Origin: Aurantiochytrium sp. KH105
Lineage: Eukaryota > Sar > Bigyra > Thraustochytrida > Thraustochytriidae
Assembly (NCBI GenBank): GCA_003116975.1
Contig: BGKB01000024.1
Span: 248,001 to 312,000, forward strand
Direction of reading: 5' to 3'
DNA length: 64,000 nucleotides
In this document: piece after piece, positions 16,835 to 54,926 of the stretch
Numbering within the stretch: the first letter of the stretch is position 1
Layout: each line of letters opens with the position of its first letter
Position numbers and translations under genes: made by a program
Notes under the pieces: generated by a model
Told to the model about the DNA's origin: nothing
The model's input: only the letters and a program-made list of their open reading frames with translations
Database searches by the model: none

Positions 16835-17740
16835 AGACCATAATCTCTGAAGCTTATTGAGATCTTTCCTGCCACTCTCTTCGCCGTCCTTGAGCTGCAG
16901 GAATAACTTCAACGTTCAACTTATAGCTTTCCAACGATGCTTTTTTGCAACGTTGACATCCTGGAAACAGAAAACTATGAAAACTGTGATGAAGTGCGTT
17001 CTCTTGTTCCATCTCAAGGAAAGTCTTTGTTAGCTCGAGTGTGTGCTAACTGACCTTTTGTAGGCCTATGGTCGGTGAAAAGAACCAAAAAAAATTAAGC
17101 TGGTGACTTGCAAGCTGCATCCTCAGCCTCGTCCTTTCCATAGCACGCGAGGCTTGCAGTCCCTCTGACTGATGAAAAATGACACACCGAATTTCTTTCC
17201 TCATTTCCCGCAAAACTCGGATGGGATGCATTCGTTCGTATCCAGATAACTGCTCCTACGATGAGTCATCAGCATAATGCAGAGGTTAGGCCTATTTTTT
17301 ATTTTTGGTCCGTGTGCACCGTCCCGCGCGCGCCAGCGTGTGCACACACTCGGCCTTCGCCCAAACAAACACCTAATACACCCCTGCGCGCGCGCGCGCG
17401 CGTCGGCGCGGCAGGCAGGCAGGCGCGGCAGGCGCAAGGCGCAAACCAGCAACCCCCTCTCTCCCCCCCCCCCCCTTCCCTCGTCCGCGCGGGCGCCACC
17501 GCGGCACGCTCCGTCCGCGCGCGCGCCCCGTGGAGAACGCGCCAAGGCCGCATCGCATCAGCAGCCAGCCCAGCCAGGCTCTCCCATCTCTCCCATCTTT
17601 CCTCCCCTCGCCTGAGTCTCTCTCCCTCTCTCTCTGCTTTCTCGTCCCCCTCTCCGCCGCAGCCGCTCGCTCGCGCCGCTTCTTCACGTCGCCTGCCCGC
17701 CCGCCCGCCCGCCCTCGCTCCCCTCGCCGCCCTTGCCGCC
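16835..17740. other. spacer and probable 5' UTR of the ROCO gene
   Basis: Holds two TAGGCCTAT words (17061-17069 and 17287-17295), a (CG)n run (~17386-17404), a C-rich run (~17466-17476) and pyrimidine-rich sequence up to the ATG at 17741. An in-frame ATG exists at 17261, but the 160 codons between the two are low complexity. Confidence 0.5.
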
Positions 17741-20700
17741 ATGGGCCGCATCGAAGGCAGCGTGTGGGGCGTCGCGCAGTCCGCCGACCTCGTGCTGGCC
17801 GCCAGCACGGACGCGTACTTGCGTGCATGGAGCAAGAAGGACAGCGCCCTCGTCTTGGAGATGAAGACGCCCAACAACAAAGGGGCCTACACTGTGGCCG
17901 TGCAGGGCAACCTCGCCGCCGTGGGGACTGACAACGGCGGCCTCTTCCTGATCGACCTGGCCACCGCCTCCGTCCTGCACGCCCTCCAGGGCCACACCGG
18001 CATTGTCTGGAGCGTCATCTTCGACGGCAACGAGATCATCTCCGGGTCGTTCGACCAGACCGTCCGCGTCTGGGACAAGATCAGCGGCCGAGAGACCTTG
18101 AGGATCGACGCCGGGGCGAAGGTCTTCGGCGTTGCCGCCCACGAGAACCTGCTCGTGGCCGGGTTGAAAGACAACACCGTGCGCGTCTTCGACCGGGCCA
18201 GCGGCGGCCCACGCCACGTCCTCACGGAGGCGACACGCGAGGTCAAAGCGGTCGCGATCGACGCGCAGCGCATGGTGAGCGGGTCCGACGACTCCAAGGT
18301 GAGGGTCTACGCCGTGCCTTCCTTCCAGCTCGTCCGCGTCCTCGAAGGACACACCAGCGTGGTGCGCTCTGTCGCGCTCGAGGGAGACCGCATCGTGAGC
18401 GGGTCCGCCGACCACACGGTCAGACTCTGGGACGCGCGCAGCGGAGCGAAGCTGCACGTCTTGCAAGGACACTCGTACGTTGTGAACTCGGTCTCTCTCT
18501 TGGGGTCGGAGATCGTGAGCGGATCTTGGGACAAGAGCGTGCGCATCTGGGACGCGGAGACGGGCGCCTCGACGCGCGTGCTGGACGGCACGGAGGCCGT
18601 GCGGCCCATCGAGGAGGTGCTCGGCGGCCCCGCGACGACTGCGGCGGCAAAGGAGGCGCTCAAGGCGGCGCTGGTGAACGGGGACCCCGCGGAACTGGGC
18701 CGCTGCAAGCTCATGGTCGTCGGCCAGGGCGCCGCCGGCAAGACGTCCACGGTGCGCTCGCTGCTGGGCATGCCGCCCGTGCCGGAGCACATCTCGACGG
18801 TGGGCGTCGAGCTCAAGCGCACCGATGCAGAGTCGTGGCGGGAAGAGGAATTCGACAGCGGATTTGAGAGCCAGGCGTATCGCGTGGCGGCGCTGCGCAT
18901 GGCCGCGCAGGAGCAGGCGGCGAGCAAGAAGCGACAATCGCTGCCCAGGCGCGTGTCTCGCGGCATTGTAGACGTCGTCCGTCGACGTTCTTCTGCGGCG
19001 CGGCCCTTCGTCGCAGAGGTGCAGGTGGAGCTTGTGCCCGAGGCCGAGATGGCGCAGCGGTTCGAATATGCGGAGATCGAGGACATGGCCGGCCAGACGC
19101 AGTCGGGTCAGAAGATCAAATTTACGATCTGGGACTATGCAGGTCAGGACGTCTTTTACGCGCTGCACCACATTTTCCTCACGCGCGAGGGCGGCGTCTT
19201 CATGCTCGTCTTTGACATGCAGGAACTCCTCACCGAGGAAAACAAAGCTTTGGGGTATCTGCGCTTTTGGCTCAACTCGATCAAGCTGCACGCGCCCAAA
19301 GCCCCTGTTCTTTTGGTCGCAACGCATTACGATCAAGCTTCCAGCAGCCTGCAAGCCGTCGAGCGAATTCTCCAGTCCCTTTTTCGTAAGCTGCGTGGAA
19401 TCAAACTGGTGAAAAACAGTGGCGCTCGGCTGAGTTTTTTCCCCATTGACAACATGAGTCCCGCAGCGAACCGCGCTGCCGATCTGCGCGCTGCTGTGGA
19501 GAAAGCGGCATCCAGGCTTGAGGCTGTGTCGCAAAAGATATCGCTGCGCTGGCTCAAGGTCTTGGATGATCTCATGAAACTGAACTGCGACCACGTTCCC
19601 TTTGCCAAAGTGCAGGAATTTGCGACCAAGTACCATGCTGGCGACCAGACAGATGAGCTGCTCAAGTTTTTCCACGAGCTTGGTATGCTTGTGCATCTGC
19701 GCGCCACCGACACCCTGCACGACAAGGTCGTGCTCAATCCCCAGTGGCTTCTGGACAAGCTGGCCCGAGTCATTGCGGACGAGATCCACGTCCAGGACAT
19801 TCTCTACGACGAGCGGCTTTCCGACCTCGAACTTGAGGACGACTTTGCGCTCCTACGTCACAAGGGCATTGGTTCACGCGCCTTGCTCGGCTTCCTCTGG
19901 GACGATGAAGAAGTCGAATATCTCGTGGAGTTCATGCGCGGCGTCATGCTTCTGTCAAACTGGGATTTCCCGGAAGATGCCTTTACATCGAGCCGTCAAG
20001 GCGAGCCGCTCTATATTGTGAGCAGTCTGCTCAAGAACTCGACCGACGCTGATCTCGACGCAGAGATTGCGGACATGGACCCCGGTCTGACATGCGTTTT
20101 GGACTTTACCAAGTTTTTCCTTCCGGACGGCGTCTTTGCACGACTGCTTTCGCTTTGCGCTCAGTACAGTGGCAACTTTGGAGCCATCTCGCGCGCACCT
20201 CAGCTGGCAGGAAACCAGGCCATCATTCACTTTGGTCTCTCCGTCTTTGCGCTTGAGCAGACCCAGGACAAGATCTGGATCCGCGTAGAGCGCGACTCCA
20301 GAGAGCCAGCAAGCACGCTAAAGACGTTGGTGAGTATGTTTCGAGACGCCCGTGACGCAGTCTTTCAAGATTTGCCATGGGAGCTCCTTCTTCAGTCGCC
20401 GAAAAATGCATCCGTGCTGGTTTCTTACGATGAAGCTGCGCGAGGGTTTGCATCATCTGGCGTAGAATTTGTCAAGTCAGTGGGCACCAAAGTTGTCAAC
20501 GTTGCAGATTTTGAGCCATTCTTTCGAGACGGGTCGCTGACAGAAGACGAGAAAGACACCGGGACCATCGAGCAGGCGTCACTTCGAGACTTGCCTGCAG
20601 GTCTCCAATACCATGTCTTTTTGAGCCACCGACAAGTGGACGCCGGCGACACATGCAATCTCATCTTTGAAAAATTGCAAAATCGAGGTCTCAAGGTCTG

Positions 20701-21037
20701 GTTTGATCAGGAGAGTCAGGGCAATCTGGCAGAGGACGCCATGCGTCGTGGGATTCGCGCGTCAAAGTGCTACCTTCTTTTTCTCTCCAAGACAGTCTTC
20801 GAGGGCGCGGTGCGCATGGAGCTCGAGACGGCGCTACAAGAGGAGAAACCTATCTTGCTTGTGCACGAGAGCGACCCGAATCGAGTCGGCTTCGACACCT
20901 TTTCCAGTTACATCAAGTCGGCTCCGAATGCTGCCAAGCACCTCTTCCGCGAGACGGAGTCCATGCCTTTTCAGCGTCGCTTATACTTGGCCGAAGCCTT
21001 TTACAAGGAGCTCATTGCACGAATTAATGCCATTTGA
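17741..21037 (+). CDS. WD40-ROC-COR-TIR protein (ROCO family, TIR-bearing)
   Basis: Start taken at ATG 17741 in gccgccATGGG; 1098 aa, TGA 21035-21037. Residues ~1-290 are seven WD40 repeats of a short type (IVSGSADHTVRLWDARSG). A ROC GTPase follows: P-loop GQGAAGKTS (~326), DYAGQD (~463), and THYDQ in the NKxD position (~528). An insert of ~140 residues lies between P-loop and switch. COR spans ~575-800 (VVLNPQWLLDKL ~663). The C-terminus from ~955 is a TIR domain (YHVFLSHRQVD, GLKVWFDQES). Glu1027 in RMELETAL aligns by eye with the SARM1 catalytic Glu in the alpha-C helix, so NAD hydrolase activity is plausible. ROCO proteins act as GTP-regulated dimeric switches; a TIR output suggests a sensor of stress or infection. 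Confidence 0.85.
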   Translation: MGRIEGSVWGVAQSADLVLAASTDAYLRAWSKKDSALVLEMKTPNNKGAYTVAVQGNLAAVGTDNGGLFLIDLATASVLHALQGHTGIVWSVIFDGNEIISGSFDQTVRVWDKISGRETLRIDAGAKVFGVAAHENLLVAGLKDNTVRVFDRASGGPRHVLTEATREVKAVAIDAQRMVSGSDDSKVRVYAVPSFQLVRVLEGHTSVVRSVALEGDRIVSGSADHTVRLWDARSGAKLHVLQGHSYVVNSVSLLGSEIVSGSWDKSVRIWDAETGASTRVLDGTEAVRPIEEVLGGPATTAAAKEALKAALVNGDPAELGRCKLMVVGQGAAGKTSTVRSLLGMPPVPEHISTVGVELKRTDAESWREEEFDSGFESQAYRVAALRMAAQEQAASKKRQSLPRRVSRGIVDVVRRRSSAARPFVAEVQVELVPEAEMAQRFEYAEIEDMAGQTQSGQKIKFTIWDYAGQDVFYALHHIFLTREGGVFMLVFDMQELLTEENKALGYLRFWLNSIKLHAPKAPVLLVATHYDQASSSLQAVERILQSLFRKLRGIKLVKNSGARLSFFPIDNMSPAANRAADLRAAVEKAASRLEAVSQKISLRWLKVLDDLMKLNCDHVPFAKVQEFATKYHAGDQTDELLKFFHELGMLVHLRATDTLHDKVVLNPQWLLDKLARVIADEIHVQDILYDERLSDLELEDDFALLRHKGIGSRALLGFLWDDEEVEYLVEFMRGVMLLSNWDFPEDAFTSSRQGEPLYIVSSLLKNSTDADLDAEIADMDPGLTCVLDFTKFFLPDGVFARLLSLCAQYSGNFGAISRAPQLAGNQAIIHFGLSVFALEQTQDKIWIRVERDSREPASTLKTLVSMFRDARDAVFQDLPWELLLQSPKNASVLVSYDEAARGFASSGVEFVKSVGTKVVNVADFEPFFRDGSLTEDEKDTGTIEQASLRDLPAGLQYHVFLSHRQVDAGDTCNLIFEKLQNRGLKVWFDQESQGNLAEDAMRRGIRASKCYLLFLSKTVFEGAVRMELETALQEEKPILLVHESDPNRVGFDTFSSYIKSAPNAAKHLFRETESMPFQRRLYLAEAFYKELIARINAI

Positions 21038-22409: not shown

Positions 22410-25400
22410 TTACATTGACGAGGCATCATGAATGTAGAGGGCGAGGGCGCCCACGTTCGGGTGTTGGAACGCAATGTCGGGGGGTAAAGTCAAGTCAACG
22501 CCGCACTGCTGCAGACGTGCTTCGAGCCCAGCGGCAAATTGCACCGCTTCGAGGGACGAAAACGACGACTTGCCGCCATCGGCGCCCATGAGCACCTCGT
22601 CGAGTGACTTTTGCAAAACCTCTTCGTCCAATTGCCCTGCCTCTTCATGCCGAATGTCCCTAAGCTCATCAACACTCTGCAACTGTTTTTGCTCTTGTTC
22701 TTGCTCCTGATTTTGTTCATGTTCTTGCTCTTGCGCTTGCAAGACCTCCTGCTTGCTCGCAGCAAGAGTTCCGGCGACCATGATGCACTCTACAATGCTT
22801 GCATACGTGGGATCCAAAAGCAAGTCGCCAAAAGCCATGCCAGCATCTGTGTCCGTGGCGCTTTCCGAATCCTCGAAAAGAGCGAGGTCGGCTGCCCGTC
22901 CTTGAAATCGCGTCGCCCGAGCAAGCGTCGCGTCCTGCGCATTCACCAGCGCAGCGACGGCACGACGGCGAATCTTGCCGCTCGATGTCTTGGGCAAGAC
23001 GCCAGCATTGACAACAATCACCTCGAAAAGACTCACGCGCTGCTCGTTCAAGACATGCTTGTATGCCATCTGACATGCTCGCCGGACGACTGTCTCCCCT
23101 GATTGCCCCGCCTCGCGACGCAATTCGGCAACAAGAACGACTCCAGACTCGTTTGCAAAGGCAGCGGACGAACCGGGACGCAAGGCTTGGTGTGCTTGTT
23201 CCGCAGTAGATTCCACATCTTGCGGATAAATGTTGCGACCATCGACAATGATCAAATCTTTGCAGCGGCCGCAGATAAATAGCTCTCCGTTGCGCACAAA
23301 TCCCAAATCACCCGTGCGCAAAAATGTGTCTTCTCGGTCACCGGTTTCGGAAACGCCCTCCGGATCGGCCGTCGCGCACTGCGCTAAAAATACCTCTTTT
23401 GTGGCCTGCGGATTTGCCCAGTAGCCGTCCGCGACGCTAGGGCTTCGCAACCAGATTTCGCCCACGCGTTCTTCCAGGTGAGAAGACGTGTAGGCACGAC
23501 CCGTGCCGGGGTCAACAATTCGCACTTCAACGCCTTCGTACGCGTCACCACACCCCACGAGCACAACAGCTTCTTTGCTACTACTGCTGCTACTATTTTG
23601 GGTGCTGTCAGATCCAATGTTGCAGTCCGTGACCTCGACACGATGTTGTGCGAGCGCAGCTCTATTTACGCGCAGCAGCGTCGGCGGGCGAAAACTCGAT
23701 CGCCCAGAGACCATAATAGTATGTTCAGCAAGCCCGTAGCAGGGAAAGGCGGCGCTTCGAGAGAATCCGAAACGCTCAAAGGCATTGGCAAAGGCGTCAA
23801 GTGTCTGCGCGCGCACAGGCTCGCCGCCGTTACCTGCAATACGCCAGCAAGATAAATCGAGACCCGAAAGCGCCTCGCCTGCAGCCGCTGCGGCTCGTGC
23901 CTTGCGAGCGGCGTAGCCATACGCAAAGTTGGGTGCTGCTGAAAAGCTCGCTCTGTAGGTAGAGATGGCACGCACCCATAACAAAGGATCGCGCATGAAT
24001 GCGAGTGGCGAAAAGCTCACGAGGCGAATTCCCGCAAAGACTCCGCTCAAAATGCACACGACCAGCCCCAGGTCGTGATATTGTGGGCACCAATTTACAG
24101 CAGTTTCTCCGCGGCCAGTGCACCCAAACGCTAGCTGGTTCTGAAACCCTTGTTCCATAATGTTAGCATGTGTGATGCGGACACCCTTGGGGTTTCCGGT
24201 TGACCCAGACGTGTACTGAAGGTAAGCTACTGCGTTAGGATCGCTGGCCCACGCACACTCGGGCGGAAGACGAGCCTTTGTCACAGCACTGCGCCCGAAA
24301 AATCGCGGCCACCCCCTCTTTGGGCCCAGTCCCACACGATGCCATGAAATGGCGCGCGAGCTCGCAGATTCCGTGACAGGTGCCTTATTCCGAAGCTCGG
24401 ACCGCGAAAATGCAAACACTCCGAACAACAGCCTGAGCCCGAGCAGAATTGCTGCAGTGGCCAAAACGTATTCAAGCCAGTGCGTAAGTCCCGACGAATC
24501 TGTTTCGTCTTTCCACTCTGCGTCGGGAAGCCACACATTTTGCCGCTTCACCTTTTTGGTTGTGAGCTTGATGTATGACAAGAGAATACCGACGGCAAGA
24601 GGAATCACGACACCGGCCACTGCACAAGCCAATGCACATGTCCACTGCAAGACTTTCCATGCCTGTGCGGCACGCCTTGCGAGCAAGAACGTAGTATCCG
24701 AAAGAATGAGACGTGGCGAGCAGTCATTCACGACCCCTTGAAAAACTGCATCGCGCCCCGTCTCTCCTGGTTTGGGCGGGTACACGGGCACAGCGATTGC
24801 CCCGGCGTACAGACAAGCAAAGAAGGCGACGACAAATTCTAGCCCTGGGGCAAATACAAGCACCACGCGGTCTCCTGGTTTCACGCCGTACGACGTGACA
24901 AGGCTCCACGCAAGTTGTGCGGCGCCTGCTTGAAGTTCTCCAAAGCTCAGGGTGCATTCGTCTCGTCCTTTTCCATCAAGCCACACCATGGCTGATTCGC
25001 TGCCGTGTTCATTTGCCCTGAGTGTAAGCACTTGAGCAATCGTCTGTGCACGCGTGCGCATTTCCTGTGCTCGCTGGCGAGCTTGATTGCGCAATTCCCG
25101 ATGTGTATCGGCGGCATCAAGTCGCTTTGAGAAAGACTGCGTTGCGGAATGAGTCAAAGGATTAGATGAAGACAGGACGGGAGGAGCATGGGACGCACGA
25201 GCCAACGCACTTGCTTTGTTCTTGCCGGCTGGCGCTTGGGAAGCTTCGTGCTCATCCCAAAAATATACGCCGGCGCGAATGCTCATCAAGAAGAGAATGC
25301 TCCCCAAGAAAACGACGGTCGGTCTGGAAAGTACGGGCCCATCATTGCGTTCAAGATTGGAAATGCCAAAGTCGCGCGCAATGGTCTCGTTCACGCTTTC

Positions 25401-26981
25401 GTCAACGAAGGCGCGACCAAAGAGAACAAGCGTTCGACTCATCTCGAGCTGCTTGGCTTGAGGTGCTTTTAGATTGAGCCAAAACGCAAGGAGCGTGAAG
25501 ATGCGCGCAGACCAAGAAAGACTGACCAACAAAAGACGCGGTGGCAAGGGGATCGAGGCCAACCAGGTTTGCAAACGCGTCATCTCCAGCGCCTCCTGCT
25601 CAAGAAGCACGAGAACGGCATTGACGGCGGCAAACATGACCCAAGCGGGGAACATGCCGTGCCAGAAAGCCATAAAGACAAAGGTAGCTACGACGCCCCA
25701 GCGTCGGTGGAACTTGAAGACGTCGCATACAGGGCCATAGATGTTTCCAAGGAGCCAGATGTGAACGGAGGCATTCATGTTGCGCCACATGTCCCCGACC
25801 GAAGTATTACGGAACGCGCAGCGCGGGAAGTTATCCGTGACCTCGATGCCGTCGAGGAGCGCCCACAAGCGGAAATACCTCCAGGTAAGTAGCATACGCA
25901 TGTAGGCCGAGAGAAAAAGCACCAGCATCGCGGCCGCAGTCTCGCACGAGCGCATTTGCTTGTGGACGTGGCGATGTGTGAACATGGATGCGAACCAGTG
26001 ATGGTCCAAGAATTCGCGAACGAGAACGGCGGAGACCAGCTTTCCTGCAAGAATAAAGCTCTTGCGCCACGGCACGGGAGCCACGCGCAGACGACCGTTG
26101 ATCACACGATAACGACGTTGCGTCTGGATGCAGAAAGCACGATATCCAATGATTGGCCCTTGCCATACAAGCGGGGCATACATGGCATATCGCAGCACGG
26201 CGAGCCATTCTGGAAGCAAAGGAGCTTTGCGTCGTTTGCCTTGAAGGACTTCCTTTGGGGATGGCGCAGCTCCTCCGGCTCCCCGAAGGAGTTCGCTCGT
26301 TGCAAAGTCAATGACACGAAAGAGCACGAAGCGCATGTTCGAGTGCCATTGGAGCCCGCCGGGGCCAAGATCGAAAAGCTTAAGAAATCGCACAAAGGGG
26401 TGTATTGAGGCAAGCGTCTCGTAGTGGCGTGTGGCGTCGTACACGTAGTCCTGAACTTGCCTTGAATTCAGGACGAGGCCGATATTGAGGGCCCAGACAG
26501 TCGCCAATGCGGCGACACGCACTTTGTGGGAAGAAGCGCTGCGTCCAGCGACTACGATCACGTAGTTAATCATAGTTTGGGCGGCCACAATCCAAAAGAA
26601 GAAGCCGTAGAGCTTCCACAGAAATACTGTGGAAAGGATAATGTCCAGGACGGCGTGGATGCGCACGGCCCATCGCGCGCTCACCTTTGTGGACCAGCGA
26701 AGCAAGATAAGGTCAACACCGCGCGAGATGGCGAGGAAGATGACAAGTGTGCCAAAGATCTCTGTGAAATGGGATCGCCACCAACGATGCTGGGGGTCTT
26801 GATCGTCCCGAACTCTCGCTTGTGTTGAAAAGGCCGTCAGAGGCATCCATGCGGGGCTCGTGCCTGGAATCTTGACCATATCATGGTACATGGCGCTGCG
26901 TTCCCCAAGCTCTTGCAGCGGACCTACCAGGAGCCCCAAGGCAACTGCTGTGAAGGTCGCTGCGAGCTGCAACGACGACAT
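22410..26981 (-). CDS. MBOAT acyltransferase - fatty-acyl-AMP ligase - acyl carrier fusion
   Basis: 1523 aa; start at the first ATG (26981-26979), TAA 22412-22410. Residues ~1-575 are multi-membrane-spanning with the MBOAT signature: RNMNASVHIWL and then FWHG, whose His441 is the expected catalytic residue. Residues ~645-1345 are an adenylate-forming domain of FAAL type: YTSGSTGNPKGV (~923), CPQYHDLGLV, WRIAGNGGEPVR, YGLAEH, RTGDLG, and the A10 motif KTSSGKIRR with Lys1336. A ~145-residue stretch between the first core motif and YTSGSTG carries two membrane helices (~781-804 and ~837-856), so the ligase is stapled to the membrane. A Gln/Glu-rich linker (~1415-1435) leads to a carrier domain (~1449-1520), with SSLEAVQF in place of DSL. 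Expected chemistry: activate a fatty acid, load the carrier, transfer to a membrane or lumenal acceptor. The acceptor is unknown. Confidence 0.87.
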   Translation of the reverse strand: MSSLQLAATFTAVALGLLVGPLQELGERSAMYHDMVKIPGTSPAWMPLTAFSTQARVRDDQDPQHRWWRSHFTEIFGTLVIFLAISRGVDLILLRWSTKVSARWAVRIHAVLDIILSTVFLWKLYGFFFWIVAAQTMINYVIVVAGRSASSHKVRVAALATVWALNIGLVLNSRQVQDYVYDATRHYETLASIHPFVRFLKLFDLGPGGLQWHSNMRFVLFRVIDFATSELLRGAGGAAPSPKEVLQGKRRKAPLLPEWLAVLRYAMYAPLVWQGPIIGYRAFCIQTQRRYRVINGRLRVAPVPWRKSFILAGKLVSAVLVREFLDHHWFASMFTHRHVHKQMRSCETAAAMLVLFLSAYMRMLLTWRYFRLWALLDGIEVTDNFPRCAFRNTSVGDMWRNMNASVHIWLLGNIYGPVCDVFKFHRRWGVVATFVFMAFWHGMFPAWVMFAAVNAVLVLLEQEALEMTRLQTWLASIPLPPRLLLVSLSWSARIFTLLAFWLNLKAPQAKQLEMSRTLVLFGRAFVDESVNETIARDFGISNLERNDGPVLSRPTVVFLGSILFLMSIRAGVYFWDEHEASQAPAGKNKASALARASHAPPVLSSSNPLTHSATQSFSKRLDAADTHRELRNQARQRAQEMRTRAQTIAQVLTLRANEHGSESAMVWLDGKGRDECTLSFGELQAGAAQLAWSLVTSYGVKPGDRVVLVFAPGLEFVVAFFACLYAGAIAVPVYPPKPGETGRDAVFQGVVNDCSPRLILSDTTFLLARRAAQAWKVLQWTCALACAVAGVVIPLAVGILLSYIKLTTKKVKRQNVWLPDAEWKDETDSSGLTHWLEYVLATAAILLGLRLLFGVFAFSRSELRNKAPVTESASSRAISWHRVGLGPKRGWPRFFGRSAVTKARLPPECAWASDPNAVAYLQYTSGSTGNPKGVRITHANIMEQGFQNQLAFGCTGRGETAVNWCPQYHDLGLVVCILSGVFAGIRLVSFSPLAFMRDPLLWVRAISTYRASFSAAPNFAYGYAARKARAAAAAGEALSGLDLSCWRIAGNGGEPVRAQTLDAFANAFERFGFSRSAAFPCYGLAEHTIMVSGRSSFRPPTLLRVNRAALAQHRVEVTDCNIGSDSTQNSSSSSSKEAVVLVGCGDAYEGVEVRIVDPGTGRAYTSSHLEERVGEIWLRSPSVADGYWANPQATKEVFLAQCATADPEGVSETGDREDTFLRTGDLGFVRNGELFICGRCKDLIIVDGRNIYPQDVESTAEQAHQALRPGSSAAFANESGVVLVAELRREAGQSGETVVRRACQMAYKHVLNEQRVSLFEVIVVNAGVLPKTSSGKIRRRAVAALVNAQDATLARATRFQGRAADLALFEDSESATDTDAGMAFGDLLLDPTYASIVECIMVAGTLAASKQEVLQAQEQEHEQNQEQEQEQKQLQSVDELRDIRHEEAGQLDEEVLQKSLDEVLMGADGGKSSFSSLEAVQFAAGLEARLQQCGVDLTLPPDIAFQHPNVGALALYIHDASSM

Positions 26982-31760: not shown

Positions 31761-34700
31761 TCATTCAATTTCATGTAAAATGTGTACGACTCCACTCGCG
31801 TCGACTACGACGTGACAGTTCTCCCATCGAGCTGCGATTCGGATTGGCTGATCCGTGGTGAACCCTACCCCTTCGCCAAGATCCACAGACGTTTTGTTGT
31901 CGCCGATCTCATAGATCTTTGGCTCTGCTTCAGAAACGTTTGCTTCATTGTTCTCACCAATCTCATAGATCTTTGGCTTTATTTCAGAAACGCTCGACTC
32001 GTTGCTTCCCGACATTTCGTCCGCTGTGTCCAGCTCTCCGCTCGTCTCGTACGCAGCATGCATCCAGAACGACTCTTCGTCCGTTGTATCTGACTCTTCG
32101 TCCGACTCGTACTCAAAATCTAGCTTGCGCATCGATTCGTTAATTTCTTGTGATAATTCGTCGTGCTTGAGAGCCATCGGGCTAGAATGTTCGTCTCCCT
32201 CGAGAGTTTGTTGGAGCTCGCCCGTGGTAGCGTTCCAGATGCGTGTTTTGTTCCATGACCTGGCCACGATTGTATCTTTGTTGATGGTCACATTTTCGAA
32301 ATGACCGACATGCCCCTCAAGAACATACATCTCCTCGCCTGAGTTCGTGTCCAAAATAAAAAACATATCGTCCGCGAACTGAGCTCCGATCATGTCGCCC
32401 ACAATGTTAAAGTTTGCATGCTTGAATGCGCCGAGCATCTTGCCCGACGTAGCGCTCCAAAGAAGTGTACTGTTTGATTGATCTTGTACAGTCAAAAGCT
32501 GACCCTTGATCGCCACGCTGCTAACCTTCCCGAGAAATCCCTCGAGAACGTGCATGAGAACACCCGTCGAAACGTCCCAAACGTGCACTATATCCAAGAA
32601 CCAGGCTACGACAAACGTGCCTTCAATCTTGACATCCCAATCAGGAGCAACTTGATCCTCGAGGACGCAGTGCTCCTCGCCTGAAGTTGTGTTCAAAATG
32701 CTCAATGCCTGGTCCATAGACTCAGCTACAATAGTGTCACCCTCAATCTCTTCGAGACGTCTGAACACGCCCAGCGCCGTGCCTGACGTTGCGTTCCAAA
32801 AGAAAAGTCTCTTTGATTCGTCTTGCACAGCAATGATTTGACCCTTCACCATAACGCGCGAAATCTGATCAGAGTGTACTTCGAAAACATGCCGGAGTGC
32901 CCCCGACACAGAGTCCCATAGATGCACTGTGTTCATGGACCAGGCGACAATAGAGTTGTCCTCAACTTCCTTGAACTTTTCGTATTCCTCGAGTTTCTCG
33001 CCTGACTTAGAGTCGCAAAACACATTCATAGTATCATTGCTCAAAACGATGAGTCGACCTATGAGCTTCACGGTTTGGACCCAAGAATACTCGTCGAGGT
33101 TAACCTGAGTCTTGCCCGACTTAGCGCTAAGAATACGCAACTTCTTGGAATACCGTGCAGCAACTCTGTCGCCATCAAACTCCCCGCACATTCTGTATGC
33201 TCCTTGCATCTCGCGCGACTCGTCGTTCACTAAAAGCTTCTTCTTGACATCTCGCGAAACGATGTATCGGTCCTTCCACCCCTTCAGTCTCAAAATGATG
33301 AGTCGTCCTTTTAACCGCACGTCTCGGACCTGCGCAGAATATTCGTCGAAATTGTGCTGAATCTTGCGCTGGATCTCGCCAGACCTAGCATCCAAAATGC
33401 ACAATCTACCCCGCGACAGTGCAACAATTCTATCGTCTTCAAACTCATCGAAAACGCTTGTGTATGCTCCTAGCATCTCGCCTGTCGTGGTACTCCAGAC
33501 GAGGCTCTCATAAACGTCTTGCAAATGAACGAATTCGTGCTTCTTTCCCACGCTCAACATGATGAGTCGGCCTATGAACCGCACGTCTCGGACCTGCGCA
33601 GAACATTCGTCGAAATTGTGCTGAATCTCTCGCTGGATCTCGCCAGACCTAGCATTCAGGATGCACAACCTATCCCGCGATAGTGCAACAATTCTATCGT
33701 CTTCAAACTCATCCAAAACGCTTGTGAATGCTCCTAGCATCTTGCCCGACGTGATATTCCAGACAAAACTCTCGTTATCATCTCGCGAAACAACGAGTTG
33801 GCCCTTCTTCGTCAGACCCGAGACTTCGGAAGTGTGCCTTGTGATGTTGTACTTCTCCTCTCCTGGCTTTGCTTTATAGACGCGCAACGTTCTGTCATCC
33901 GATCCAGACACGAAGATAGTTCCACCCTGAGTTTCCCCGCCCTGAATTTCCCCGCCGTGAGTCGGCACGTCCTGAGTTGCCACACTGTTCACGATCGAAA
34001 AGTGTCCTTTAAGAATATACTCTTGCTCGCCAGACTCAGCATTCCAAACACGCAATGTCTTGTCGCTGGAGCCAGACAAAATCTTGCCGTCCTTTATGTC
34101 AACAGCGCGGACCTCATCAGAATGGCCTTCGAGGGTGAGCAGATTCTTGCCAGTCGCAACGTCCCAGGTACGCACTGTTTTATCTTTGGACCCAGACACG
34201 ATGATGTTGCCCTCAATTGCCACACTATTGACCTCATCAGAGTGCCCTTTAAGTGTGAAGTTCTCTCTGCCCGACATAGCGTCCCAAACACGCACTGTAT
34301 TGTCATCGGAACCAGACACAATGTAGTTGCCCTTAATTGCCAAGCTTCTTACGGAACCAGCGTAGCCTTGAAGTACCCGTCGTTCCTCACCCGACTCTGC
34401 GCTCCAAATGCGAATTGTCCCGTTTCTGGATCCTGACACGATGAAATCTCCATCTATTGCCACACTCAAGACTTCGGAAACGTGTCCTTGTAGAATATAT
34501 TTCTCATCGCCTGAAATGATGCTCCAAACGCGCACCGTTCTGTCGTCGGATCCGGATACGATGATATCGCCATTGATTGCCACACTCCGCACAACATCAG
34601 AGTGTCCCACGAAGACTCGCTGCTCCTTGCCCGATGTACTGTTCCACATGCGAACTGTTGTATCCTCAGACCCCGACACGATGACATCGTCCTCAATCGC

Positions 34701-37610
34701 CACGCTCGTTACGGAACGACTATGCTTCTTGAGAACGTGTTGCAAGGGGTCACGAGGATGTGTAAGGCTCGCACAGAGGGGTTCCAGCCAGGGGGCTGCA
34801 GGTGGCTCTAGTTTCTGTAGCAGAGGATCATCTGAATTTTGGCCAAAGCGTGCTAGGATCTGTGACGCGAGCTCCTTGGGGTTGTAGCTAAGGACATGCA
34901 CTGCTTTGCTTAAAAAGCGAGGGGTGTTGCTCTCGGGCTTGTCATATATGTGAAGGTCGACGCAGTCCCGAATAAGGTTTCGAATTGTGGTGTATCTCTG
35001 TGCCTCGTCGGCATCGATAGAGAGGACGCTTTGTATCCAAGTTGAATCATTCAGGAGCTCAAATGCTGCAGCCTGGTTTCCGCTTTCGACGCTATGGAAG
35101 ATTGCATTTCGGATCGCAAAGTGGTCCTCCCGTGAGCTGCGGCAATATTCGGCCAGGAGCTTGTGCCCTTCTTTTTCCGTAAGGGAAAGATCTCCACTGA
35201 GGTCGGCAGCAAGAAGCCAGTCTGCCATTCTTTTATGAATGAGAGCCACACGGTGATCGCCTCCTCGGTATAGAAGGTTGCGTGCATCTCCAACGATCTT
35301 TTTCGTTTTGTTTTTTGACTTGTTCAGAATCGCACTGATTTGCTCCTCACTCAGTGGCTCACGCGCCGTCACGATGGGAGTCAGGAGTGTGCGGTATGCA
35401 TCTTGCCCGCCCATCTTGTCTCGCAGGCGCCGAAAGTACTCTTCAAACATGCCATTGAGTCCGTCGGGAACGACATCTTCCTGAGAGATATCCTCAAAGT
35501 TGAGTAATTTCCCCCCGTTTTCTTTTTGGATTCGCTCTAGCGTATCGGGCAGGAAGCTTGCCCAGAGAAAGAGACCTTCTGATCGTTTCGACAGAAGGCC
35601 GGCGCATCTTTTCGCGTCCTTCGGGTCCACCACGTCGCTCATGTCTTGCAGCAAATGTTCAATGTGCAGCTTGATATCACGAAAGTTTTCGCTGTCCTTG
35701 AGCTCCAAAACCTTACAATTCAGATTGTTGCCGATGACGCCGCGCTCGATGCCGCCCTCAGGACGTGTGCTCACGATCAAGCTTAGCCATGTGGGCATCA
35801 TCTCTTTCCAGGTTCGAATGATTTTGCGCAAGAGCTCATCGCTTTCGCTGCACTCGTCCAGAGCGTCGAGGACAATCACTTGCCGTTCTTGCTTTGCTTG
35901 CTTTGAGTTCAGGTTGTCAAGCGGGTCAACAAGCAAAATTTTGAAAAGATCGGCCAGCTTATTGTCGCGAACACCCGTGAGATCCAATTTATCAAGCTCC
36001 TCAGCAAAACCAGGCACGGTAGCACAAAGTTGCCATGCAATGCTTATGATAGATTCCTTTGGTAGCGTCGCATTTCCCGCGTCGTGTTGAAAAAAGTGGT
36101 ATGCCGCCACGTGAATGGGCGTTCGATTCTTCTTGCTTTGGCGCCATTGCTTTCGTACTTGCCATGACTTTCGACGCTCTGTCGCGGCACCATCCTTGGG
36201 TCTGGAGACATCATCACCATCACTGTCAATATTGAGAGCGCCTCCACGGCGGCACAGCTCGGCCATGATAACGCTCTTTCCGACACCACCGTCGCCTACG
36301 AGGATGAACACCGAAGATTTCCCCGTGTCATACCACTTGCAAAGCTCGTCGATTATCCAGCTTCTTGTACCAACAGTGAAATTTTTCGCCTTGCCCTTGG
36401 CCCACACTTCGGAATTGTACGGTGTCAAGACGCCTTTCAAATCTCGCATCATGGGCGGCAGGTCGGCCGACGCTTTCGGTGTATTCATACGCTCGCGAAT
36501 GGCGTCAGCGAGGTCTTTGACAGTCTCGTCAGACACAGATGTGACGACAACCGGCTTTGTTCGCGAGAGACCCAGCTGGAATGCCCCGGTCCATCCTGTA
36601 TTTGGTCTGGTCATTCTTTTCTCCAGCGCAGCGACCACAATTCGGTCAAAGCGATGGTTCCCGGCGTAGCCAAACTCCTTCAGGCAGTTGTCTGCCCTAT
36701 CGCCTTTGTTGATCTTTTCCATGTATCTTTCGGTTGCGAGGACGATGAAGACCTTCGAATTGTTAATTCCACGTGCCATACTGTTATTAATGCCTCGTTT
36801 AACATGTTTCTCGTCGATCCATATCTTGAGCTCGTGATCCTTTTCCAGGCGTCTTGCAATTTCCTTCGCCTGATCGTGCACACCCCACTCGTGAGAGATA
36901 AAGGCGTGGAACGTCTCGACAGGCTTCTCACCTTTTGCCGCTTCCTGGATGTGGCTGAGAAAAGACGGAATATTGCTCTGGTCACCGTCACAAAAGCCAA
37001 AGAACAGATCGTTGGCCATACAAAAGCCGAGTTGACCACGCCAGGACCTTTGCTCAAGCATACGTTTTTCCACAACGACTGGAAAAAGTGCGTCTGGGAA
37101 TTTACTGCTGACTGCCTCGACGAGCGCTTCATTATCTTGTAAGGCTGCACTTACCATCATTGCCACAGCAGTGGGAGGTCTGGCTTCAAGTTCTTCTTGA
37201 ACCTTTGCAGCCTCGCTGAGGGTACGCACAGATTTTAGGCTGGGCTTGATGGCATCGAGGAACTGCTCTGCCACAGCTTTGTCCTTGGGATCGTGAACGA
37301 TCAGAACAACAACCTTTTTCGCATCCTTCTGCGATTTCGCGGCCACTCCATTCCCTCGTGGTCGCTGCGAAGCCGCGCCTCTGGCGGATTCTGGTTGCTG
37401 CGGAGCCGCATCCTTATTGAATAAATCAATCCTGTCTTGAATGCTCGGCATTTCGGCCCTGTCGCAAACTTCAACGTTCGCCGGCCCGTCGAGTTCGGGA
37501 TGGTGGACGGCTACACTCCCCTCGTCCGCCTCGCTAGCCGCCCTTCGCGCCACCGTGAGCGCGGGTCTCCGACTGCCATTACGGGCCCTTCCTCGTCTCA
37601 GCGATCTCAT
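31761..37610 (-). CDS. TIR-NACHT-WD40 receptor (NLR-like STAND ATPase)
   Basis: 1949 aa from ATG 37610-37608 to TGA. Residues ~99-228 form an alpha/beta unit (KKVVVLIVHDPKDKAV) that may be a degenerate TIR-like fold. A clear TIR follows at ~231-353 (ETFHAFISHEWGVHD, ELKIWIDEKHVKRG), with Glu312 in NCLKEF at the alpha-C catalytic position. The NACHT-type ATPase has Walker A GDGGVGKS (439-446), Walker B VIVLDALDEC (~579-588) and SLIVSTRPEGG (sensor). A helical region leads to WD40 repeats from ~958 to ~1870: first seven or eight canonical, then several degenerate ones with a near-identical 88-codon duplication. Such STAND proteins sense ligands through the repeats and oligomerise; the TIR would be the signalling or NAD-cleaving output. 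The last ~80 residues are acidic. Confidence 0.87.
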   Translation of the reverse strand: MRSLRRGRARNGSRRPALTVARRAASEADEGSVAVHHPELDGPANVEVCDRAEMPSIQDRIDLFNKDAAPQQPESARGAASQRPRGNGVAAKSQKDAKKVVVLIVHDPKDKAVAEQFLDAIKPSLKSVRTLSEAAKVQEELEARPPTAVAMMVSAALQDNEALVEAVSSKFPDALFPVVVEKRMLEQRSWRGQLGFCMANDLFFGFCDGDQSNIPSFLSHIQEAAKGEKPVETFHAFISHEWGVHDQAKEIARRLEKDHELKIWIDEKHVKRGINNSMARGINNSKVFIVLATERYMEKINKGDRADNCLKEFGYAGNHRFDRIVVAALEKRMTRPNTGWTGAFQLGLSRTKPVVVTSVSDETVKDLADAIRERMNTPKASADLPPMMRDLKGVLTPYNSEVWAKGKAKNFTVGTRSWIIDELCKWYDTGKSSVFILVGDGGVGKSVIMAELCRRGGALNIDSDGDDVSRPKDGAATERRKSWQVRKQWRQSKKNRTPIHVAAYHFFQHDAGNATLPKESIISIAWQLCATVPGFAEELDKLDLTGVRDNKLADLFKILLVDPLDNLNSKQAKQERQVIVLDALDECSESDELLRKIIRTWKEMMPTWLSLIVSTRPEGGIERGVIGNNLNCKVLELKDSENFRDIKLHIEHLLQDMSDVVDPKDAKRCAGLLSKRSEGLFLWASFLPDTLERIQKENGGKLLNFEDISQEDVVPDGLNGMFEEYFRRLRDKMGGQDAYRTLLTPIVTAREPLSEEQISAILNKSKNKTKKIVGDARNLLYRGGDHRVALIHKRMADWLLAADLSGDLSLTEKEGHKLLAEYCRSSREDHFAIRNAIFHSVESGNQAAAFELLNDSTWIQSVLSIDADEAQRYTTIRNLIRDCVDLHIYDKPESNTPRFLSKAVHVLSYNPKELASQILARFGQNSDDPLLQKLEPPAAPWLEPLCASLTHPRDPLQHVLKKHSRSVTSVAIEDDVIVSGSEDTTVRMWNSTSGKEQRVFVGHSDVVRSVAINGDIIVSGSDDRTVRVWSIISGDEKYILQGHVSEVLSVAIDGDFIVSGSRNGTIRIWSAESGEERRVLQGYAGSVRSLAIKGNYIVSGSDDNTVRVWDAMSGRENFTLKGHSDEVNSVAIEGNIIVSGSKDKTVRTWDVATGKNLLTLEGHSDEVRAVDIKDGKILSGSSDKTLRVWNAESGEQEYILKGHFSIVNSVATQDVPTHGGEIQGGETQGGTIFVSGSDDRTLRVYKAKPGEEKYNITRHTSEVSGLTKKGQLVVSRDDNESFVWNITSGKMLGAFTSVLDEFEDDRIVALSRDRLCILNARSGEIQREIQHNFDECSAQVRDVRFIGRLIMLSVGKKHEFVHLQDVYESLVWSTTTGEMLGAYTSVFDEFEDDRIVALSRGRLCILDARSGEIQRKIQHNFDEYSAQVRDVRLKGRLIILRLKGWKDRYIVSRDVKKKLLVNDESREMQGAYRMCGEFDGDRVAARYSKKLRILSAKSGKTQVNLDEYSWVQTVKLIGRLIVLSNDTMNVFCDSKSGEKLEEYEKFKEVEDNSIVAWSMNTVHLWDSVSGALRHVFEVHSDQISRVMVKGQIIAVQDESKRLFFWNATSGTALGVFRRLEEIEGDTIVAESMDQALSILNTTSGEEHCVLEDQVAPDWDVKIEGTFVVAWFLDIVHVWDVSTGVLMHVLEGFLGKVSSVAIKGQLLTVQDQSNSTLLWSATSGKMLGAFKHANFNIVGDMIGAQFADDMFFILDTNSGEEMYVLEGHVGHFENVTINKDTIVARSWNKTRIWNATTGELQQTLEGDEHSSPMALKHDELSQEINESMRKLDFEYESDEESDTTDEESFWMHAAYETSGELDTADEMSGSNESSVSEIKPKIYEIGENNEANVSEAEPKIYEIGDNKTSVDLGEGVGFTTDQPIRIAARWENCHVVVDASGVVHILHEIE
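33316..33750. repeat. 264-bp tandem duplication inside the WD40 coding region
   Basis: The sequence from 33316 recurs from 33580 (offset 264 bp, exactly 88 codons) with only scattered differences over ~170 bases and weaker similarity across the rest of the unit. Both copies stay in frame, so repeat number in the receptor has changed recently. Confidence 0.85.
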
Positions 37611-39302
37611 ATTGCACGTGCTGCTGCACGCGCTGCTACTGCACGCGCTGCTGTTGTACACACTGCTGCAGCTGCTGCACGTGCTGTCCAATTCGCGTTT
37701 TGTCAGCTGCCAGCTGCAGCTCCTGGCCCCAATTCGTGTTTTGCTTCCCACGTTTCGCGAGGGAGAATGGGCTCTTGGGACGGGAACCTCACGCTCGGCT
37801 GCTGCGCGGACTCACGGTCACAGGCGCCCCGCGATTGTCGTGCCGTGTCCGTTGGTGCGATCTTTTCATTTGTTCTCCGCGCGATTGCTGCCGCGCCAGC
37901 TGCAGCTGGCTGCTGCACCCAGTAGCCGCCTCCCGCGATCACGGCTCTGATCACGGCTCGCGATGCCTGGCCGGGTCGCCTCGGCTCGGTGGTGGCGGCT
38001 CGCACGGCGCCGATCTTCGAGCATGTGTTTGGGTGAGTGAGGTTCATGGGCGTGCTTCCAGGAGGCACGGTTGTGAGAGTCTGGACGCGCGGGGTTCATG
38101 CGGACTAACAGTAAGGTGTCGCGGGCGAGCAGCCTGGCCGGCTTGGCTGCCAAGGATCGCGAATTTCGTGATACAGGAGAACGAGACCGAGGATGAGTTC
38201 GCCCTCAAGTGTGAGCCGACCGTAAAAGTTTCGCGCGAAGATCAAAGGCGACAGCCAGCCAGCTTCTTGTCGCGAACCGTCCTGGCCGGCTTTCATGGAT
38301 CGCGAATTTCGTGATACAGACTCTCGGTGTGCGCAAGCATGGTCAAGAAAGTGGGCCGATGGGCAGCTCATCGCCCTGCCATGGTATAAGTTGGCAGGGC
38401 GGCTCAGCAAGGCGCTCAATTCCAGGAGCAGCAAGCCTTTGAGGTCGGAGGAGAAGGAGGCAGGGATCATGATTTCTGGCGAAGGGCGCGACTTCAACGA
38501 GGCATCGCTGCGTTGTGTTGAGTCTGCGCGCGCGTGGCCAACGCCAATCTAAGAGCGTCCACTTGGCCACACAACTCTCAGAACATCTGTTGCAAAAACA
38601 TGCAATAGGATCAAGTTTGGACACCACGCCGTGTTGATGTGAGATAGCAGGAAGTTGCATTGTGAAGGCGTGCGAGAATGGCAGTCTTTCTCTTCAAATT
38701 TCACCCATAAGCTCTATTTTGAAAGTGTAGTCGGCGTCGTTGTTTTCCACGGCTTGTCTGGCAGGAGACGATGGGCCTAGATACCATTCGCAGAAGTTGC
38801 GTCAATTTGGGATTGTATTGCAAAGCTTAGATTTTCACCTTACAGGGGGAACAGCTCGCGAAGCTCATGGAGAGCGTTGTCTAGCTGCATCATGCTCAAT
38901 TCTCGACGATAGACACCATCCCTGTCGCCACAATGGGCAAATCTTTATAGGCCCTCCATATAATTGGACGCGAGCGTCATTTCGAGCTGTTCTGGTTCTC
39001 TGCGGATGACGTCGCTGCATGCGCTTGGCCTTTCATGGTCTGTTCACATTTCTAGCGTGACTACGATGCAGCATGCTGACATCGGCAGGAGGGCGATTCC
39101 AAGTCTGTAGAACATGTATACACGCTCATATCTTTCTCTTTGCGAGTCAGGCTGAGAATACTGTTCGCCAGGTAGTCCAAGGCCTAACTCGCCCATACCC
39201 GATCTGTTCACCATAAATCTCGGAGAAAGCGCACGTGCTTGGAGATGGGGCTCATCCACGAGCTACAAATTCACATCGTATTTTTCTGCCTTTATTCATT
39301 AT
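37611..39302. other. 1.7-kb spacer upstream of the NLR-like gene
   Basis: The first 80 bases are a CTGCTGCACG-type repeat (37618-37685). A 23-base word ending in TTCGTGATACAG occurs at 38154-38176 and again at 38297-38319, each preceded by cctggccggctt (38133-38144 and 38281-38292). From ~38580 the sequence becomes AT-richer, towards the 3' end of the coiled-coil gene. No credible gene is seen. Confidence 0.5.
38133..38319. repeat. duplicated short element with 23-bp identical core
   Basis: Two copies, 143-148 bp apart, each made of cctggccggctt followed by a 23-base core that starts ggatcgcgaa and ends ttcgtgatacag. The reverse complement of the end, CTGTATCACGA next to ccggccagg, occurs at 15116-15134, so it is a dispersed family and not a purely local duplication. 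Confidence 0.7.
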
Positions 39303-47885: not shown

Positions 47886-50009
47886 TCAAGGGCGCGAAGG
47901 CGCATCAGCGTTGGGAGCCATGGAAGCTGCACGCTGGCGCTGTTCGCTTGCCTGAAGAATGTTTCCTGGGCCGTTCATGTCGTACGAGCTGGCACGCACA
48001 GGCATGGTGCGCATGCTTCGCTGAGAGCGGGCACGAGACATTTGGCCATAGGCCGAAGGCGCGAGGGAAAAACCGTCACTGCCAAGCGCCGGTGGTACAG
48101 GCACCGGCTGATGCATAGGGGACGGGTTCGGCGAAGGATGCATGGGCGGCGTGGGCTGCAGAGGCGGCGTAGGCTGCATAGGTGGCGTGGGCTGCATGGG
48201 CGGCGTGGGCTGGCCCGGTTGCATCGGGTATTGCGGCGAAGAATTCGTGGGCGAGCCCGAAGGCACTGCCGGAGGGCGGTATGAAGTCCCGACCTGAAGA
48301 TCGGGCCGGGGCGGCTGCTGGTGCGGCGGCACCATGCCCGGGGGCGGTCCACCTGCGGCACCGCCAATCTGATATTGTACCTGAGGAATGGAGCTCATGG
48401 GCTGCTGCATCTGGAGCTGGCCCGCCCCTTGCTGCAGTTGTTGCTGCTGCATCTGCATGAGCTGTTGACGCTCGAGCTCCTGCTGTTTAAGGAGGTTGGC
48501 CCGGTCCTGCACCTGCTGCTCCTGCAAAGACCTGGCGGGCTGGCCCTGGATGGGGAGGTTCTGCATGGGTTGCACGTAGACGTTTGAGGTCGTCATCGAC
48601 GAAGGCGGGAGCTGCTGCGTGTTCTCCGGGAGCGGCGGCATGACGTGAACGTCCTGGGGAGCGAAGCTCGGCGAAGGGTTCGGGGCAGGTGGGGCGCGCC
48701 TCGGGATCATGGACGGCGAGTCGAGCGGGGGCACCGAGCCATCGTCGGTCGAGTGATCAGACTGCGGCTGGTTGCTGTCGTGAGGCGAGAGCGGGGCCTT
48801 GTGGACACCCGGGTGGAGGCGGTCGCTTTGGCCGCTCTGCGCAGACACATTCGAGTAGACGCGATCGCGGTTCGAGGCGCTAGAGTATCCCCGGTCGCGG
48901 TTCGAGGCCGAGGAGTAACCACGGTCCCGCTGGGGAAAGGCGGCTGCAGCCGTAGCGGCGGAAAAGTTGCTGCCAGGCTGCATGGACAGGCGGCGCGTGG
49001 ACCCAGCAGCAATGGTATGCGGGCTTCCGGCATAGGGCGCAGAAACGCTGTGATGGAACTGGGGCTGCTGCTGGAAGTGGGACGGGTTGAGGCCGAGATC
49101 GGGGTGTCGCGCCGAGGAGCTCTTGATGAGCGGCATTTGCGCGGCCTGCTCGTCGGTGATGGCGGTGACGGCGGGCGGGATGTTGGATGCGGCTTCAGAG
49201 GCCATGCTCTCCGTCTCGTAGTTGGTCTGGTAGGCAGGGTACTGGCGCGAGATGATGGTCTCGCCGACGGAAGGAGGACGTGACTCGGAGACCATGGTGG
49301 TGCCATTGAGCTCAAACTCGGTCTTCATGTCAAGCTCTGGGGTGGCCTTGCGGGGCAGGATAACTACAAGTGCGGCCTGGATGAGACCGAGGAGCAGACC
49401 AAAGAGGTTGGGAATGAGCACGAACATGTCGCCGGTGAAGCCCGCGTAGATGATCCACATAAAGGAGGAAGAGACTTGACCGATGAGAAAGCCCATGTTG
49501 ATGGAGACGCTGTTGTGCTCACGAATGACTTCGCGCACCGTACTGAGCGGCGCGGCAAACATGAAGAGACTCATGCACATGGCGCCGATGCCGACCACTT
49601 CGATGGCAATTTCGGGCACGTAGCGCGCAACCACGGAGAATCCGATCCAGAGCGTGATGAGCGCAATGGTGAGGATCTCGAGGCGGTGAAAGATGGATGA
49701 GTGGGGCGCGTATCGGATCGAGGTAAAGAGATAAAAGGTACTCATGAGGATGCCGAAGCCATTGGCCACAATGAGGTACGGGTCTTCCTTGACGATTCCG
49801 TAGATGGTGTTTCCGAGGCAGTTGGCGAGCGTCCAGGGAAAGAGCGTGGCATTGAGCCTGCCGAGGTCGCCGGCCTTACGGGCGGCGAGGATGGCAGGGA
49901 GAGGTCCGACGAAGAGGACGATGGCCAGGAGCGTGCCGAGGGCGGGCGCGACGATCTCGACGACGATCGTGAGCGCCTCGTTCGTGTACTCGGAGTCTAC
50001 CTCGCTCAT
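47886..50009 (-). CDS. SWEET (MtN3/saliva) sugar transporter with long Gln/Pro-rich tail
   Basis: 707 aa from ATG 50009-50007 to TGA. Residues ~1-225 contain seven hydrophobic segments in two triple-helix units; the second has APLSTVREVIREHNSVSINM, the classic SWEET loop. The first unit has LFVGPLPAILAARKAGDLGRLN. SWEETs are bidirectional uniporters for sugars at the plasma or vacuole membrane. The tail (~240-707) is more than twice the size of the transporter itself: Tyr/Ser/Arg repeats (DRGYSSASNRDRGYSSAS), Gln runs, and PTPPMQPTPPMQPTPP repeats. It is likely disordered, cytosolic and phospho-regulated. The tail is unusual, since known SWEET tails are short to moderate. Confidence 0.88.
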   Translation of the reverse strand: MSEVDSEYTNEALTIVVEIVAPALGTLLAIVLFVGPLPAILAARKAGDLGRLNATLFPWTLANCLGNTIYGIVKEDPYLIVANGFGILMSTFYLFTSIRYAPHSSIFHRLEILTIALITLWIGFSVVARYVPEIAIEVVGIGAMCMSLFMFAAPLSTVREVIREHNSVSINMGFLIGQVSSSFMWIIYAGFTGDMFVLIPNLFGLLLGLIQAALVVILPRKATPELDMKTEFELNGTTMVSESRPPSVGETIISRQYPAYQTNYETESMASEAASNIPPAVTAITDEQAAQMPLIKSSSARHPDLGLNPSHFQQQPQFHHSVSAPYAGSPHTIAAGSTRRLSMQPGSNFSAATAAAAFPQRDRGYSSASNRDRGYSSASNRDRVYSNVSAQSGQSDRLHPGVHKAPLSPHDSNQPQSDHSTDDGSVPPLDSPSMIPRRAPPAPNPSPSFAPQDVHVMPPLPENTQQLPPSSMTTSNVYVQPMQNLPIQGQPARSLQEQQVQDRANLLKQQELERQQLMQMQQQQLQQGAGQLQMQQPMSSIPQVQYQIGGAAGGPPPGMVPPHQQPPRPDLQVGTSYRPPAVPSGSPTNSSPQYPMQPGQPTPPMQPTPPMQPTPPLQPTPPMHPSPNPSPMHQPVPVPPALGSDGFSLAPSAYGQMSRARSQRSMRTMPVRASSYDMNGPGNILQASEQRQRAASMAPNADAPSRP

Positions 50010-54467: not shown

Positions 54468-54926
54468 GCGCGCCTCGGGCCGAAGTATTATAAAGAGTGA
54501 GCACCCGACCGCGATTGGGTTCGAACTGCGTCTCGGGCGCCCGCGTCAGGGCCGTCCTCCCGGAACTCCGCGGCCGCATCTCTCGCTCTCGCTTCCGCTC
54601 TCGCCCTCGCTCTGCCAGCGCGCCCCCGCGCGCGCGCGCGCGCGCTCCGAGCGCAGCTATCCTGACCGCCAGAAGGGGGCCGCACGCAGAAGGGTAAATA
54701 AAGAAGAAGCAGCAGACAGGCCGGGCGCATCTGCGCCGACCGTGGGAGGGAGGAGACGCAGCTCCCTCCCTCCCTCCCGACCTACCTATCCACTCATCTA
54801 CCTGTCTGCGTCTCTCCGTTCTTTCCTCTCTCTATCTCACCCGGCTTGCCACGCGCCTTCGTTGAGACGTCTTGAGACGAACCTGGTCTCTGGCGGGCCG
54901 TCGTGCGAACTTTGTGCAAAAAACGC

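Follow-up and report, generated by a model that had tools for sequence, protein, structure and literature searches.

In the bacterial Dlt system of teichoic acid D-alanylation an adenylating ligase (DltA), a carrier (DltC) and an MBOAT acyltransferase (DltB) act in series as three separate proteins, and it is D-alanine and not a fatty acid that they pass on. DltC docks on DltB at the cytosolic side, as described in parts of PMC11035591 (one passage of which writes Asn289 for DltB His289), and a section of a 2023 review gives DltB as the sole MBOAT that does not use acyl-coenzyme A (acyl-CoA) (PMC10213974). We have analysed a 64,000-nucleotide stretch of the genome of the thraustochytrid Aurantiochytrium sp. 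KH105 (the window, to which coordinates refer unless a contig or locus is named) and describe here a gene on its minus strand, at 22410..26981, which encodes a full-length MBOAT, a fatty-acyl-AMP ligase (FAAL) and a C-terminal carrier in one chain. All three parts belong to known families, and their combination is real and conserved.

Several other systems share some of these features. Of the MBOAT sequences found, those of HHAT and the GUP1-type MBOATs are nearest, and their folds also rank among the nearest, but they are without a fused ligase or carrier, and in the fusion protein Asn stands for HHAT Asp339 (HHAT D339N is inactive) and the GG of the CoA loop is missing. The acyltransferase domain of Escherichia coli Aas is of the PlsC type; no such domain is among the four Pfam families found in the fusion protein, which has an MBOAT instead. 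Aas does have an acyltransferase and a carrier-loading ligase in one chain, and the loaded carrier then feeds the acyltransferase, whereas it is a peripheral protein with no predicted membrane helices, a 203-residue transferase domain that is not an MBOAT and a separate acyl carrier protein (ACP), according to the relevant sections of PMC11416262. In the case of mycobacterial FadD32 and Pks13, a FAAL loads a carrier, ACP1, that likewise has Ser-Ser at its site; unlike the fusion, however, bacterial FAAL-carrier pairs feed polyketide or peptide assembly lines and not an MBOAT. DIP2 is similar in having a eukaryotic FAAL-like domain with a PF23024 C-terminal part. In contrast with the fusion protein, which has a single FAAL and whose four Pfam families do not include DMAP1-binding, DIP2 consists of two FAAL-like domains and a DMAP1-binding domain, and the passages on it in PMC8460268 report no MBOAT or carrier. 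That paper also mentions FAAL-like domains that are joined to lysophospholipid acyltransferases in bacteria and to HemY and catalase in plants, and the word MBOAT is absent from its main text. A preliminary description of this locus, made from the DNA letters, had known of no described eukaryotic enzyme with this layout, and we too found none described in the open-licence PubMed Central literature. PMC6353168, which was found for Hondaea together with MBOAT, names MBOAT in a figure legend only, as far as its accessible text goes.

The coding sequence runs uninterrupted from the ATG at 26981 to the stop at 22410 (1,523 codons), with no intron needed. There is a second copy on contig C13 (L009:2005-6864) of the genome, in which 76 Mb in 367 contigs were searched; its entire frame is likewise open and 1470 of its 1523 residues are identical. 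Differences between the copies fall 28, 23 and 75 times at the three codon positions (dN 0.016, dS 0.069, dN/dS 0.23; non-synonymous and synonymous rates). The C13 copy adjoins the same kinase gene as the window copy (438 of 440 kinase residues identical) and most other hits in the genome are also paired, from which we infer that the two copies and their kinase neighbours are two haplotypes.

Relatives were sought with residues 640-1523 as the query (7994 candidates scored, 7357 passed, best 120 of 7357 listed). Among the matches listed, at least four carry both MBOAT and AMP-binding domains: the annotated Hondaea fermentalgiana protein P0002 and the metagenome proteins P0005 (45 % identity over 68 % of the ligase-carrier region), P0006 (42 % over 99 %, with its N-terminus cut off) and P0008 (41 % over 99 %). 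Of 1262 aligned residues, P0002 shares 1250 (99 %) with the C13 copy and 1222 with the window copy. A further protein of 990 amino acids, P0003, which we take from its MMETSP label (transcriptome project) to be a transcriptome-set protein, shows 53 % identity over 100 % of residues 640-1523. It starts within the final portion of the MBOAT and continues through the ligase insert described below to the carrier, and therefore points to a single transcript across the MBOAT/ligase junction in a related species. The organism name in the P0003 record starts Auranti- (taken as Aurantiochytrium), yet its taxid, 87120, is that of the fungus Rhizopogon. The fusion, insert and carrier are kept together across 41-53 % identity. 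Because of the second copy, the Hondaea protein, the three metagenome proteins and the junction-crossing P0003, these comparisons confirm that the fusion frame is a real single gene and neither a gene-model nor an assembly artefact. The single polypeptide claimed in the preliminary description thus holds, and two checks that it suggested, for the same domain order in other genomes and for a transcript across the junction, bear it out.

The fusion ligases form one clade (support 100/100) in a tree built with 40 of 118 extracted ligase domains, from which the own-genome loci L018 and L020, which yielded no domain, were left out. The position of the genome's free FAAL as sister of this clade is weak (91/82, long branch). 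A profile of the MBOAT alone gave no match at E 1e-3 among 7997 candidates scored in the protein collection; the MBOAT profile gave 54 pattern matches in prokaryote genomes and the full profile 14 in viral contigs, with none confirmed in either case. Within the limits of these searches, no bacterial MBOAT-FAAL fusion was found.

Pfam finds, in order, the MBOAT, the AMP-binding and the DIP2-like AMP C-terminal domains, with PP-binding below threshold. The MBOAT part (25212..26981, minus strand as are all features of this gene) comprises residues 1-590, with the last predicted helix at 554-582. Its Pfam core is at 25524..26222 (residues 254-486; PF03062, E 5.7e-21, 75.6 bits against a cut-off of 27); NCBIfam assigns no family to this part. 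The Pfam score, the alignment of His441 and the predicted fold all indicate a conserved His within a multi-helix MBOAT core. His441 (25659..25661) aligns to HHAT His379 and is identical in all four aligned MBOAT parts (the query and three relatives; counts out of five aligned proteins refer to the query and four relatives). The catalytic Asp339 of HHAT is replaced by Asn403 (25773..25775) in 4/4. The FWHG signature noted previously is present at residues 439-442, though only WH is constant in the four (FWHG, VWHE, YWHG, LWHG).

By sequence, the nearest MBOATs are HHAT (family profile E 3.9e-13) and the genome's own L023, which on its motifs we take to be GUP1-like, and not DltB; by predicted fold HHAT and DltB tie. 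Asn403 also differs from DltB His289. Because the MBOAT is by sequence nearest to HHAT/GUP1-like proteins and the ligase is a FAAL and not a DltA-type amino-acid ligase, the comparison with Dlt drawn in the preliminary description is apt for the flow of work but not for descent. The AlphaFold model matches HHAT up to the last residues of HHAT, both termini of which are cytosolic (PMC4319003, in the part consulted). This suggests that the ligase and carrier should start on the cytosolic side.

The FAAL is in two parts, at 24657..25019 (residues 655-775) and 22947..24266 (residues 906-1345). Pfam places AMP-binding (PF00501) at residues 655-1188 (E 3.1e-55) and the DIP2-like C-terminal domain (PF23024) at 1242-1343 (E 5.4e-8). 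Phmmer matches the first part to the FAAL structures 7r7g and 3kxw, and the ANL fold is closest to FAAL structures. The core motifs reported earlier are all present: YTSGST, GRCKDLIIVDGRNIYPQD and PKTSSGK, which we take as A3, A8 and A10, with the A10 catalytic lysine, Lys1336 (22974..22976), identical in 5/5 aligned proteins. In the E. coli FAAL the CoA pocket is blocked by W224, M231, F279 and the FAAL-specific helix. The corresponding residues are W964, L971 (Leu for Met) and F1019, matched by motif and equal spacing and not by residue-level alignment, and a FAAL-specific helix is predicted at 992-997. NCBIfam ranks a PKS/NRPS (polyketide synthase/non-ribosomal peptide synthetase) model first and then FAAL models, with 0/25 among the matches listed reaching cut-off. 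Judged by its motifs and fold, the ligase part is a FAAL.

Between the two FAAL parts there is an insert of about 105 residues (24342..24656, residues 776-880), which all five aligned proteins have and the genome's free FAAL lacks. The AlphaFold model has two long helices here, 763-803 and 835-863, and between them a short strand hairpin that contains an invariant Pro-Asp-Ala-Glu. The two membrane helices claimed in the preliminary description therefore stand as an insert with two predicted helices, which likely cross the membrane. We rejected hydropathy as proof of membrane helices, as some windows within the soluble ligase come out about as high as the insert on both the Kyte-Doolittle and a biological scale; the case for the insert is made by alignment, predicted helices and absence from the free FAAL. 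That free FAAL-carrier (L022:1493-4219, on contig C89, with a second copy on C18) has a GMDS carrier site and no helix insert, and its Cys-rich C-terminal tail could be lipid-anchored.

The C-terminal carrier domain (22413..22616, residues 1456-1523) is indicated by a Pfam match below cut-off, by hhalign and by helices in the AlphaFold model. A profile of the five tails aligned to 66 FAAL-linked carriers at 81.4 % probability (E 1.2e-5), with helix II and its attachment Ser over the carrier DSL and Ser1475-Ser1476 over Asp-Ser; ten control windows of the same proteins all gave less than 1 %. The 66 came from 115 other proteins by a recognized A10 motif and a DS site, and so are selected for DS. 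Ser1476 (22554..22556), in Ser1475-Ser1476-Leu1477, is the predicted phosphopantetheine attachment site. The SSL reading made earlier is correct, the site being Ser-Ser-Leu/Ile in 5/5 proteins. A rough motif scan of the collected proteins shows mostly DS in FAAL-linked carriers, so that Ser-Ser is unusual; behind bacterial FAALs, DS is the commoner form. The preliminary description took the site as a reason for caution about loading. Among solved structures the Pks13 ACP, which reads LSSRDAV, is the best match, although a weak one (PDB profile E 0.025, with unrelated FeoB rows next at E 0.08-0.1). In mycobacterial Pks13, S38 bears the arm, R39 comes next, and ACP1 is loaded by FadD32 (PMC9900942, in part); a legend there names the site DSL-type, while its numbering gives SSR. 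The PDB sequences of the Pks13 ACP also give SSR. SSL as the mark of a dead carrier was therefore rejected: an SSR carrier holds the arm and hhalign recovers a carrier here. The genome contains six matches to PF01648 (phosphopantetheinyl transferase), apparently three pairs.

Taken together, one continuous conserved frame, the domain identities, the conserved catalytic residues and the phosphopantetheinyl-transferase-family genes lead us to favour, with moderate confidence, a single-chain acyltransferase that is embedded in the membrane and independent of CoA. In this scheme a free fatty acid would be adenylated with ATP to acyl-AMP by the FAAL part, which its sequence supports well as a prediction. 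The acyl group would then move to a phosphopantetheine arm on Ser1476 of the chain's own carrier, which would dock at the cytosolic mouth of the MBOAT in the same or a partner chain, and His441 and Asn403 would hand the acyl group on to an acceptor accessible from the bilayer or the lumen. Beside the MBOAT mouth the ligase is probably tethered to the membrane by the two-helix insert. The loading of the arm, the carrier-to-MBOAT transfer and the role of the insert are inferred. Given the roles of the GUP1 and HHAT families, lysolipids, glycosylphosphatidylinositol-type lipids and secretory proteins would be the best candidates for the acceptor. The layout given in the preliminary description stands, as does its order of reactions as far as this can be tested from sequence; the reactions themselves are predicted.

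A number of observations weigh against this reading. The Foldseek TM-scores of the MBOAT model to HHAT are about 0.5-0.6, and the models are middling (pLDDT 67.2 and 63.8, pTM 0.60 and 0.63; AlphaFold's own confidence scores). The CoA-phosphate residues of HHAT, Arg336 and His343, are largely kept as Arg400 (Lys in P0005) and His407 (Gln in P0005), so the MBOAT may still use CoA. The GG loop is also missing in several CoA-using MBOATs. The loop of the insert is Lys/Arg-rich, a poor fit with a lumenal loop. Finally, the carrier is degenerate: PP-binding (PF00550) matches residues 1475-1517 at E 0.028 and 15.1 bits, below the 20.8 cut-off, P0001, P0002 and P0003 score 15.1, 13.9 and 20.6 bits, and Pfam finds no carrier in P0005, P0006 or P0008, so that none of the six proteins reaches the cut-off. 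NCBIfam gives only one unrelated weak row for this part. The carrier claimed earlier is thus upheld by hhalign and not by Pfam.

Alternatively, the fusion may serve location only, the FAAL-carrier half working for another partner (e.g. a polyketide-type or polyunsaturated fatty acid synthase) and the MBOAT half using acyl-CoA. Such an arrangement is suggested by the free FAAL-carrier with its GMDS site, by two 4476-amino-acid frames in the genome that match the ligase weakly (E 4e-5 and 9e-5), and by the mostly kept Arg400/His407. However, fusion, insert and carrier remain joined despite the divergence of the relatives, and known FAALs occur with carriers, whether stand-alone or fused (parts of PMC8460268), and we think this alternative unlikely. 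It is less probable again that acyl-AMP goes straight from the FAAL to the acceptor of the MBOAT, with the C-terminal domain never loaded and serving as a scaffold or surviving as a relic. This would account for the weak carrier score and for Ser in place of Asp, but Ser1475-Ser1476 is identical in 5/5 proteins although the domain as a whole shares just 35-61 % of its residues with that of the query, and Pks13 ACP1 provides a precedent. That the ligase makes acyl-CoA after all, for local use by the MBOAT, seems to us very improbable; the P0002 record is named 4-coumarate--CoA ligase 4, which looks like automatic naming, and both the FAAL fold with its CoA-blocking residues and the order of the NCBIfam models, sub-cut-off as they are, argue against it.

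The Hondaea gene model of P0002 drops 37 and 224 residues as introns, corresponding to residues 469-505 and 550-773 of the C13 copy (L009), inside conserved domains. Both can be placed as GT-AG introns, of 111 and 672 bases, and both are in frame, stop-free and multiples of three. The larger would remove the last MBOAT helix and the first FAAL part, which P0003 retains; of the smaller, P0003 includes no more than a few residues at its end. Real splicing of both was considered, and the introns are either annotation errors or exitrons. These excisions speak for two adjacent genes read as one, or for a misassembly, which we regard as having a negligible chance against a frame open in two copies, removed stretches that are stop-free multiples of three, P0003 crossing the junction and holding the larger region, and the further relatives P0005, P0006 and P0008.

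On balance, though a little less surely than the reading favoured above, this would be the first eukaryotic MBOAT fed by a same-chain carrier and not by acyl-CoA. One protein would then lead from free fatty acid to acylated lipid or protein without CoA, and its ligase would be membrane-anchored by a helix hairpin inserted into the catalytic fold. If true, such a fusion in a eukaryote would break the rule, as worded in part of PMC10213974, that all MBOATs except DltB use acyl-CoA. It would also give a eukaryotic FAAL a part in acylating lipids or proteins, which differs from the functions reported for DIP2 and the plant proteins, and would be a route of fatty-acid attachment bypassing CoA in which one membrane protein performs steps that are split among proteins elsewhere. 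Thraustochytrids produce glycerolipids rich in docosahexaenoic acid (PMC6353168, in part); therefore a dedicated route of free fatty acid past the CoA pool to one acceptor could bear on fatty-acid sorting. As the three parts share a chain, one purified protein would suffice to assay the transfer from carrier to MBOAT.

Other genes in the window include a WD40-Roc-COR-TIR protein at 17261-21037 (plus strand), an immune-receptor-like layout in a protist, and a 1996-amino-acid frame at 31761-37751 (minus strand) with many WD40 repeats and an NPHP3_N domain, which we take to be NACHT-like. A SWEET/MtN3 sugar transporter domain is encoded by a frame at 47886-50009 (minus strand), and a 1962-amino-acid frame at 54903-60791 (plus strand) has a calpain protease domain at residues 1446-1756.
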